Made by a program: the position numbers and the translations under genes | Source: Nitrosospira sp. NpAV | GTDB taxonomy: Bacteria > Pseudomonadota > Gammaproteobacteria > Burkholderiales > Nitrosomonadaceae | Length of the DNA stretch: 64,000 nt | Assembly (NCBI RefSeq): GCF_000832065.1 | Contig: NZ_JXQM01000001.1 | Coordinates: forward strand, 248,001-312,000 | Direction of reading: 5' to 3' | Notes under the pieces: generated by a model | Database searches by the model: none | Told to the model about the DNA's origin: nothing | The model's input: only the letters and a program-made list of their open reading frames with translations | Shown here: positions 19,336 through 21,352 of the stretch, one piece after another | Position numbering within the stretch: position 1 is the first letter of the stretch | How the letters are laid out: each line of letters opens with the position of its first letter

Positions 19336-19360
19336 ACAGAGGGGCAGCTCGCCCCTCTGT
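19336..19360 (-). terminator. Terminator of the first PEP-CTERM gene
   Basis: Perfect 10-bp arms ACAGAGGGGC and GCCCCTCTGT around AGCTC. An A-rich run just left of it (19329-19334) reads as a T-run on the minus strand, directly downstream of the PEP-CTERM gene that ends at 19376. Confidence 0.8.
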
Positions 19361-19375
19361 GTCTCAGGACCGGTT

Positions 19376-20053
19376 CTATACAAGGACCTTGCGACGGCGT
19401 GCCATAAAGCCCATCAAACCCAAGCCAGCCATGAGCATGGCATAGGTTCCAGGTTCGGGGACAGGAGAAGATATATTGATAAAACTCTCACTGCCGCCAC
19501 CAGTCGCGAACTGTTGTACATGCAAACCGATGCGCAAGTCGCCGGTTTCGCCATTGTTTGGAAGTGCGAGCGCGCTGATAACATCGCTGTATGTCTGACC
19601 GCCCATTAAGTTGAAATCAATGGCAAGCCATTCATCCTGGCTAACACCGTTGTGCGAGACGGGTGCATTGGAATCCGCCAGAAAGCCGGCGGTTGTCACA
19701 AATGCGGGGCTGATGGAGTCGCCGCCGGGAAGATTAGGCGGACTGGCCCCTTGCGAGAAATTCACTCCCGATGAATATGTAATGGATGCAATCCCTAGAA
19801 GCGTACCGTCGTCGAAGTAGACATCGGTCAGGGAAGAAGTGGAATTATTGGTAAAATTGAATCTTACCTGACTGCTGCCAAGATCTATCACTTCAACCTT
19901 CAGGTTTGCTTCCCCATCCACCTCGGCTCCCGTGTTGTTATGGGTGATATTTGCAAAACTATAAGATGTCGATGCCGCCGCGTATCCGAGTGGCTGATAA
20001 ACCGATATTGCGAGGGCAAACAGCAAGCCCGGCAATGGTCTTAAGTAACTCAT
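19376..20053 (-). CDS. PEP-CTERM sorting-domain protein
   Basis: An exported 225-residue protein: N-terminal signal peptide (about residues 1-26, cut near YAAA), an extracytoplasmic beta-rich, Ser/Asn-rich body, and the C-terminal tripartite signal SPVPEPGTYAMLMAGLGLMG followed by a MARRRK basic cluster. PEP-CTERM proteins are processed by an exosortase (EpsH/Xrt) and are tied to exopolysaccharide. I start at the ATG at 20053, 7 bases after GGGAGG. The body matches no domain I know. It is the first unit of a tandem cassette with the gene at 20577-21113. Confidence 0.85.
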   Translation of the reverse strand: MSYLRPLPGLLFALAISVYQPLGYAAASTSYSFANITHNNTGAEVDGEANLKVEVIDLGSSQVRFNFTNNSTSSLTDVYFDDGTLLGIASITYSSGVNFSQGASPPNLPGGDSISPAFVTTAGFLADSNAPVSHNGVSQDEWLAIDFNLMGGQTYSDVISALALPNNGETGDLRIGLHVQQFATGGGSESFINISSPVPEPGTYAMLMAGLGLMGFMARRRKVLV

Positions 20054-20105
20054 GAATGACCCTCCCAAGAATTTGGATTCGAAGATTTATGTTGTAAAGA
20101 AATGC

Positions 20106-20292
20106 GTACCAGCATTCTGGCTATCTGCGCACACACGGGCTTCAGCAGTCCTTGCGCTGCAACAGATCCTGGATTTTCCGGCCCCGGCTCATGACAGGTG
20201 TGGCTTTACGGTACGTCAAAAGCTTAACGGGGGAAAATGACAGCAGGTACTTCTTTAGAATTCATAAGCATGAGCTTTTAGGTGCATGCCTG
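20106..20292 (-). repeat. PEP-CTERM upstream element, copy A
   Basis: A block of about 185 bases starting 53 bases upstream of the first PEP-CTERM start codon and clearly homologous to copy B at 21168-21352. Two stretches are identical: the CCTGGATTTTCCGGCCCCGG region (20168-20187) and TGTGGCTTTACGGTACGTC (20200-20218). Position relative to the gene is conserved, so a promoter or leader role is likely. Confidence 0.8.
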
Positions 20293-20530
20293 GATTCTAC
20301 CGAGTACAGGACGAAATATTTTTGGGGTCGATCCGGCAGGCTTGAGAGAGGAGGTATTGGAGACGCAGTAAATAAACAAGACCTATGCTCTTGACCATAC
20401 AAACGTAAGCGGTATCGCTAGACTGCTTTGTATCGAAAACAGAAGTTGGTGCTGCCCGATAGAAGCGGCTGATCTCAATCCAGTGGGTAACCAAGTGCCA
20501 GGAAAAAACTCTCGAGCACAAAAACGAAAA

Positions 20531-20560
20531 GCTACAGAGGAGCATCCGCCTCTCTGTAGC
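20531..20560 (-). terminator. Terminator of the second PEP-CTERM gene
   Basis: GCTACAGAG (20531-20539) pairs with CTCTGTAGC (20552-20560), with further partial pairing inside. A-rich sequence to the left supplies the T-run on the minus strand. It shares the TACAGAGG core with the terminator at 19336-19360. Confidence 0.75.
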
Positions 20561-20576
20561 TTAAGGTAAGGCCCGT

Positions 20577-21113
20577 TTAAGAAATCTTGCGACGACGCGC
20601 CATGAAGCCCATCAGCCCCAAGCCGGCCATGAACATGGTGTAGGTTTCAGGTTCAGGTACCGGCATAGCCTGGAGAACACCGCCGTAGCTGCCGCCAAAG
20701 CTACCCGTAACATCGCCTGCCACGATAAATTTGTAACCCAGGGCGGCAGGCAAGGTGGCGAAAACAGAAAGCGTGTTGTCCGCAGGGTTAGTCTGGTTAT
20801 CAATATCAAAAGTCGTAACACCGGTTGCATCGGTAAACTTGATTGACATATTTGATAGTTCAAACTCGGGTCCGGGAAAGAGCGGGATATCCAGATTGAT
20901 CGTGACAGCCGTACCGACCGTAACAGACTGAGGCGCTATATCAAAAACATACGTGTCAACAAATGACGAGCCGTAGGCTATCGCCGAGAAGGTGTTACCG
21001 ATGGTGTACGTTTGACCGCTCAAATTTCCCAAGTAACCCGGCCCCACGGCGGATGCAGAGCTTATATACCCCGCCAGCATGAGTCCCAATAATGATACTT
21101 TCATATGATTCAT
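20577..21113 (-). CDS. PEP-CTERM sorting-domain protein
   Basis: An exported 178-residue protein with a signal peptide (cut near SASA-VG, residue 23), a beta-rich body of about 125 residues without cysteines, and the sorting signal PVPEPETYTMFMAGLGLMGF plus MARRRK. An FVDTYVFDI segment and the strand pattern recall FxDxY-type PEP-CTERM proteins, but that family call is tentative. AGAGGA lies 10 bases before the ATG. Upstream element and terminator match those of the neighbouring PEP-CTERM gene; the protein bodies have diverged. Confidence 0.85.
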   Translation of the reverse strand: MNHMKVSLLGLMLAGYISSASAVGPGYLGNLSGQTYTIGNTFSAIAYGSSFVDTYVFDIAPQSVTVGTAVTINLDIPLFPGPEFELSNMSIKFTDATGVTTFDIDNQTNPADNTLSVFATLPAALGYKFIVAGDVTGSFGGSYGGVLQAMPVPEPETYTMFMAGLGLMGFMARRRKIS

Positions 21114-21167
21114 TTTAATAAATCCTCTAATAAAATAAGTTAATTTTCCATTTTTTTAATAAATGAT

Positions 21168-21352
21168 GTACTGGCATTCCGGCTATCTGCGTGCAGATGG
21201 GCTTCAGGCCTTGCGGCTTTGGCAGATCCTGGATTTTCCGGCCCCGGCTCACAGCGGGTGTGGCTTTACGGTACGTCGGAAGCTTAACGTGGGCAAATGA
21301 CAGAAAATACTTTGCCACGATTTATATGCATGAGCTATTAAGCGCATGCCAT
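21168..21352 (-). repeat. PEP-CTERM upstream element, copy B
   Basis: Second copy of the element described at 20106-20292, starting 55 bases upstream of the second PEP-CTERM start. It includes a small dyad ATCTGC-GT-GCAGAT (21184-21197) that is not preserved in copy A. I did not find a clear sigma-54 GG-N10-GC pair. The rest of the 21114-21524 gap holds nothing recognisable. Confidence 0.8.

Follow-up and report, generated by a model that had tools for sequence, protein, structure and literature searches.

A c-di-GMP-I riboswitch aptamer with a swapped base pair is predicted upstream of tandem PEP-CTERM genes in Nitrosospira sp. NpAV

In a 64,000-nucleotide stretch of the Nitrosospira sp. NpAV genome (the window; positions are counted from its first letter), two neighboring minus-strand genes encode PEP-CTERM proteins, and the single-gene unit around each very probably carries a promoter followed by a c-di-GMP-I (GEMM-I) riboswitch aptamer. 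Aptamer identity, ligand-contact residues, position and gene class come directly from the computation, and from these we infer that both copies bind c-di-GMP in the cell. Judged by sequence, both copies belong to a c-di-GMP-I subtype with a compensatory swap beside the ligand pocket, from G21-C46 to C21-G46. This one base-pair change appears to mark c-di-GMP-I riboswitches upstream of substrates of exosortase, an enzyme associated with the cell's sugar coat.

Two PEP-CTERM units share their leader

Gene A (20577..21113, minus strand) encodes a 178-residue PEP-CTERM protein of the FxDxF family (NF038126, 88.3 bits against a cut-off of 50; PF07589, 39.2 bits). Gene B (19376..20053, minus strand) encodes one of 225 residues (PF07589, 40.6 bits), which has an orthologue in Nitrosospira sp. 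56-18 (locus L095; 70% identity by BLASTP). The PEP-CTERM motif is present in both proteins. The initial annotation held that the protein bodies differ greatly, and indeed significant BLASTP alignment between them is limited to 38 C-terminal residues, of which 26 are identical. It also described a matching block upstream of both genes, which we recover as a repeat of 183-185 bp whose parts are 75-80% identical; it ends 52-54 nt 5' of each start codon. Pairwise matching places copy A of this block at 21168-21350 and copy B at 20106-20290 (both minus strand), and the two align without gaps over one stretch of 128 nt and another of 40 nt, with 83% identity in both. Within the repeat, 73 bp of shared promoter region precede the aptamer (113-115 nt).

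We compared copies A and B segment by segment, taking the highest of 50 shuffles as the baseline (second figure in each bracket). Identity is highest in the aptamer (80%; 52%); the promoter part aligns without gaps (75%; 59%). The spacer between aptamer and start codon is at chance level (49%; 51%), and the first 90 nt of the coding sequence (48%; 52%), its body (37%; 46%) and the 60 bp beyond either end of the units (41%; 54% and 42%; 45%) are within the shuffled range. The leader is conserved between the units and the body of the coding sequence is not; since spacer, coding start and body, and outside DNA all fall within the shuffled range, the conserved block, which stops near the 3' end of the aptamer, ends where the folded RNA element ends. 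The earlier claim that non-coding flanks are kept above coding sequence thus holds for leader against body, but not for the PEP-CTERM coding end, whose conservation matches that of the leader (78%; 52%). Related terminator hairpins had also been proposed: the hairpin scan shows a terminator-like hairpin 3' of gene A (20536..20553, minus strand) and a stronger, intrinsic-terminator-like one 3' of gene B (19336..19360, minus strand), but the stretch from stop codon to hairpin is only moderately conserved (60%; 55%).

The copies are adjacent, in the same orientation, and have leader, sorting-signal end and terminator stretch in common, as would be expected if the leaders were alike only through recent duplication of a cassette and replacement of its body, with no selection on the leader. 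We consider this unlikely: the spacer is at chance level and the aptamer well above it, and the L095 locus retains the element upstream of the gene B orthologue, with 79% identity to copy A over 193 columns and 89% to copy B over 54; the orthologous gene itself has 75% identity over 532. Duplication is moreover compatible with function, and therefore explains the origin of the element rather than its role.

The leader matches the c-di-GMP-I aptamer

In cmscan, the aptamers of copy A (21165..21277, minus strand) and copy B (20103..20217, minus strand) cover the full length of the c-di-GMP-I-GGC model RF03167, with 33.7 bits (E 2e-5) and 32.8 bits (E 3.5e-5). These scores are below the gathering score of that model (59), as are those against RF01051 (32.7 and 30.0 bits; gathering score 35). 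A gathering-level Rfam scan of the 64-kb window listed zero RNA families, and annotation at Rfam cut-offs would therefore miss both aptamers; such a cut-off is a curation threshold, not a property of the RNA. To avoid circularity, we built a covariance model (R2) from 16 related aptamers, without the two window copies, L095 and L213. Over the 64 kb, R2 ranks copies A and B as the top two matches (42.9 bits, E 5.6e-13 and 36.9 bits, E 7.2e-11; these E-values are rough), and the next match has E 0.38.

The ligand-contact residues G20, A47 and C92 (Vc2 numbering) are present in both copies, at 21264, 21237 and 21174 in copy A and at 20204, 20177 and 20112 in copy B; C21 and G46 are at 21263 and 21238, and at 20203 and 20178. 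The interhelical C44-G83 pair is present as well (21240/21183 in A, 20180/20121 in B). The roles of the contact residues and the importance of C44-G83 are described in excerpts of PMC4744006 and PMC3764141. Both copies align over the whole models, including helices P1, P2 and P3 and the dinucleotide bulge of P3, with one P2 mismatch each. By eye, P1 changes from GUAC/GUAC in copies A and B to GUGC/GCAC in L095. The P2 loop, which in this riboswitch class docks into P3, is GUGA in copy A (21249-21252, in the GNRA position), AUGA in copy B (20189-20192, GNRA lost) and GCGA in L095.

Relative to RF01051 as represented by Vc2 and Vc1 of Vibrio cholerae, the window copies have the same junction layout, contact residues, C44-G83 pair and leader position. 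They differ in having C21-G46 instead of G21-C46, a P3 arm about 30 nt longer (also in L095), no GNRA loop in copy B, and scores below the cut-off. Among Rfam models, RF03167 gives the window copies, L019, L213 and L093 their highest scores, and the UAU variant RF03168 does so for L095. To judge from the printed consensus, the letters GGC would stand for positions 20, 47 and 92; the RF03167 consensus has G at position 47, whereas the window copies have A47, a departure from the GGC variant.

Scanning the whole genome with RF03167 and RF01051, and disregarding rows with E above 1, we found four c-di-GMP-I aptamers with E below 0.001: copies A and B, a third swapped aptamer (L019) 93 nt upstream of a 289-residue PEP-CTERM gene, and one (L020) upstream of a gene named subtilisin-like by eye. 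The prediction that most matches of the element would lie upstream of PEP-CTERM genes is thus confirmed at the RNA level, for three of these four.

Across 27 swapped aptamers, 92.6% of 486 cells are paired (shuffled mean 88.4), 28 cells are altered on both sides (9.2 shuffled) and covariation is 0.347 (0.266 shuffled), in an alignment that has one sub-group one base out of register in P3. Further pair types show no excess in this set (21 versus 20.9 shuffled), and pairs 21-46 and 22-45 are invariant within it. Minimum-energy folds of the leaders are no better than shuffles (z -0.43 and -0.35). Imposing the aptamer pairs costs 11-14 kcal/mol and leaves access to the start site unchanged in copies A, B and L095; access becomes slightly lower in L131 and goes from 0.25 to 0.64 in L213. 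Energy folding of the leaders revealed no recognizable expression platform.

A swapped pair appears to mark aptamers upstream of exosortase substrates

We assembled a family set of 147 aptamers: 142 among the matches listed (125 genomes), the four of this genome and L095. Six listed rows were excluded as tandem partners of another match, and one partner, L158, was kept. Within this set, among the matches listed, pair 21-46 is G-C in 116 aptamers, C-G in 29 and C-C, unregistered by the script, in 2; pair 22-45 is formed in all 29 C-G aptamers. G20 occurs in all 147, in a script register that favors G at this position, and A47 and C92 in 145 each.

Among the matches listed, 28 of the 29 swapped family loci are upstream of a gene with the PEP-CTERM signal, as scored by a profile built from 53 further PEP-CTERM tails of this genome; the remaining locus, L232, is upstream of an RTX-like gene truncated where the contig stops. 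The 118 other family loci comprise 87 with a complete gene, 29 with a cut gene and 2 without a gene, and the signal is found in one of the 87 complete genes (L065). In the rest of the order, all of the 65 RF01051 loci considered (25 given, 40 picked for spread) are G-C, with the signal in 0 of 47 complete genes. Regular-expression matches at L261 and L264 were rejected as false, and the L261 gene runs to the end of the locus and was not taken as complete. The gene-picking script may take the wrong frame, and the signal test was rerun with each of the three downstream frames read as far as 3 kb: among the matches listed, the signal is present at 28/29 swapped family loci, 2/118 other family loci and 0/65 order loci. 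The only non-swapped loci with the signal in this test are L065 and L209, the latter with its signal 1.6-2.3 kb away.

The training set of another model, R1, held nothing but aptamer sequence, although it consisted of swapped aptamers, nearly all of which are upstream of PEP-CTERM genes. We classified 31 and 28 given loci from its matches; the others repeat family matches already counted, and duplicates were counted once (L326 is L232, L319 is L092 and L333 is L093). With R1 we gained 15 swapped loci in the rest of the order, 9 beyond the order but within the class, and seven more in the family. By eye, complete genes at these loci end in PEP-CTERM or VPxPA-CTERM in 10 of 10 cases in the order and 7 of 8 in other orders, the sole exception being a gene resembling a polysaccharide-export protein (L373). 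Cut genes at swapped loci encode LEPRxLLS-type proteins (L316, L319) or are protease-like (L320, L321, L336, L374). Unswapped R1 loci (8 in the order round, 19 in the other-orders round) have no sorting signal in the chosen gene where this is complete. Among the matches listed, and including L091, there are 61 swapped loci with 54 complete genes, 53 of which carry an exosortase sorting signal (PEP-CTERM or VPxPA-CTERM).

The 53 sorting-signal proteins form 8 unrelated body families (of 30, 14, 2, 2, 2, 1, 1 and 1 members), and genes A and B represent two of them; the window pair stood out because its genes have the same switch and sorting signal with different cargo. Common descent of riboswitch and gene inside each family explains the association in part. 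With 30 of the proteins in one family and 14 in another, we considered a single-family artifact, and rejected it: there are 8 families, and the contrast holds at the level of clusters, where the signal is present in 8/9 swapped versus 1/34 other clusters (Fisher P 5e-7), or in 8/12 versus 1/39 (P 6e-6) when four other swapped gene types are counted against the association.

We tentatively suggest, as a possibility and short of an expectation, that aptamers with C21-G46 make up a riboswitch subclass of their own, devoted for the most part to exosortase substrates throughout the class Gammaproteobacteria (GTDB definition). In such a subclass, the changed pair would adjust affinity or kinetics, and matrix proteins would then respond to another c-di-GMP level than do proteases and regulators controlled by G21-C46 switches in the same cell. 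The riboswitch reading itself, if true, would give an RNA link between the exosortase/PEP-CTERM system and the biofilm second messenger, beside the known sigma-54 route. With the swap as a sequence rule, such regulons could be searched for, members under present Rfam cut-offs included, and the swap offers a clean test case for the tuning of a riboswitch to a gene class by a pair next to the ligand pocket.

Two further loci, L213 (301-393) and L091, have a GUAC-type P1 as in the window copies (by eye) and lie upstream of related PEP-CTERM proteins of one cluster; P3 is enlarged in L213, and the L091 protein has a PhoX match. By sequence, they may be nearer to the window aptamers than any other locus except L095.

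Promoter region and sigma-54

The promoter parts lie at 21278..21350 (copy A) and 20218..20290 (copy B), both on the minus strand. Scored with a hand-written sigma-54 matrix, copy A has a weak -24/-12-like site (TGGCAAAGTATTTTCT; 21302..21317, minus strand; 10.1 bits) 44 nt 5' of the aptamer start. It keeps the GG and has TTTC at -12, short of the full -24 GG/-12 GC consensus. Copy B has no match (4.0 bits); by eye, its aligned sequence from 20242 keeps the -12 half only. The original observation that there is no sigma-54 pair is therefore correct for copy B, but has to be qualified for copy A. In L095, a site of 12.8 bits is found at the same distance from the aptamer as in copy A, and the site in the window looks degenerate.

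Sites of at least 12 bits precede 39 of 115 G-C-type aptamers, mostly about 31 nt upstream (0.17% in shuffles), and sites of at least 10 bits precede 6 of 29 swapped aptamers, at -41 to -44 (0.5% in shuffles). Upstream of the PEP-CTERM genes of this genome, 9 of 60 have a site of at least 13 bits (0.8% in shuffles). A predicted sigma-54 promoter followed by a c-di-GMP riboswitch is a recurring arrangement in the family. Loci L148, L149, L154, L164 and L167 are examples in which a strong sigma-54-like promoter lies at a distance from the aptamer that hardly varies.

The 3.45-Mb genome has 60 PEP-CTERM matches with PF07589 (58 over the cut-off), and a genome scan with the DNA and RNA models found a riboswitch copy at 3 of them and none at 57. 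Of the roles first proposed for the upstream element, those of shared promoter and structured leader are both supported, the latter now identified as a c-di-GMP-I aptamer, but an operator of the exosortase regulon does not agree with 57 of 60 matches having no copy.

Excerpts of Haft 2006 report a sigma-54 motif and long upstream regions for PEP-CTERM genes, with the motif at 99 of 167 proteobacterial ones (PMC1569441), and pepA is described as RpoN-dependent in an excerpt of PMC9850573. The ligand of the c-di-GMP-I class became known from 2008, after Haft 2006, according to an excerpt of PMC7266159. As far as the excerpts go, the sigma-54/PrsR-PrsK element resembles the window copies in joining PEP-CTERM genes to long conserved non-coding upstream DNA, and differs in that control is protein-based, at transcription, and in its full consensus, which the window copies lack. 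The block could thus be only a shared promoter or operator, a Haft-type sigma-54 and PrsR cassette kept by recent duplication, with the aptamer a decayed relic: the promoter part is also 75% identical, copy A and L095 have sigma-54-like sites at -44, such sites are enriched before PEP-CTERM genes, and copy B has lost its GNRA loop. We regard this as improbable, given that the aptamer is better kept than the promoter, that A, B and L095 all retain the contact residues, that copy B is without a sigma-54 match, and that the same subtype is found upstream of other, unrelated sorting-signal genes outside the family.

Predicted mechanism and relation to published systems

With a promoter and riboswitch aptamer as the preferred reading, each transcription unit would consist of the conserved promoter, the c-di-GMP-I aptamer, a short spacer that is not conserved and contains the ribosome-binding site, the PEP-CTERM gene and the terminator. 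The transcript would begin shortly 5' of P1, at about 21280-21300 for copy A and 20220-20240 for copy B. Diguanylate cyclases (the genome has 19 GGDEF matches) would raise c-di-GMP, and the ligand would dock in the three-way junction and stabilize it. Docking would change the output, most likely to more matrix or surface protein, which would then be sorted by exosortase, of which the genome encodes 2. In copies A and B, the stretch from aptamer to gene shows no terminator-like hairpin, and for this reason an expression platform acting on translation initiation or through Rho seems likelier than intrinsic termination.

Adjacency of PEP-CTERM genes and c-di-GMP riboswitches has already been published: excerpts of PMC12530212 place c-di-GMP riboswitches of Methylophaga nitratireducenticrescens GP59 beside four sorting-signal genes (three PEP-CTERM and one VPLPA-CTERM) and report higher transcript levels in biofilm for 10 of 11 riboswitches, including three of these four. 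By analogy with these levels, and from the biology, the window switches are probably ON switches. According to the same excerpts, GP59 shares with our loci the riboswitch type beside exosortase-type genes; it differs in being one gammaproteobacterium, with its riboswitches found by annotation, and the likeness drawn here is one of riboswitch type and gene class. In the excerpted open-licence literature, the riboswitch-PEP-CTERM association appears in PMC12530212 only, and PMC10599522 mentions both, apart. Excerpts of that literature, whose scope takes in few subscription papers, yielded no description of the C21-G46 subtype.

Two swapped-type aptamers upstream of PEP-CTERM genes, L364 (genome G047) and L367 (genome G057), have A at position 20. 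We take this change in GEMM-I to be typical of c-AMP-GMP binders, and L364 and L367 are possible cGAMP-type switches in the family, judged by sequence. These relatives, and the rare c-di-GMP-I variants that sense c-AMP-GMP (PMC7266159, in excerpt), raise the alternative that the window aptamers sense another cyclic dinucleotide, such as c-AMP-GMP; with the c-di-GMP set of G20, A47 and C92 in both copies, this is very unlikely.

Distribution of the element

At the DNA level, an exact pattern scan of genome contigs gave a single locus, L095, and a search of 399 genomes of the order, by a method that is too insensitive, gave matches in 4 of them, including this genome. A mobile or palindromic repeat, an earlier alternative that two similar non-coding copies might suggest and that scattered matches would have indicated, has a negligible probability, as the element occurs in only two places in 3.45 Mb and the next match is of 23 bases (E 0.05).

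Several of the PEP-CTERM matches of this genome lie in small clusters (contigs C107, C85 and C2). At five loci (L073, L078, L080, L085, L089), a single leader carries a pair of c-di-GMP-I aptamers spaced by about 240 nt. One conserved family of large proteins repeatedly has c-di-GMP-I riboswitches upstream of its genes in other families of the order (a cluster of 28; L244, L248, L252, L257, L270 and others).
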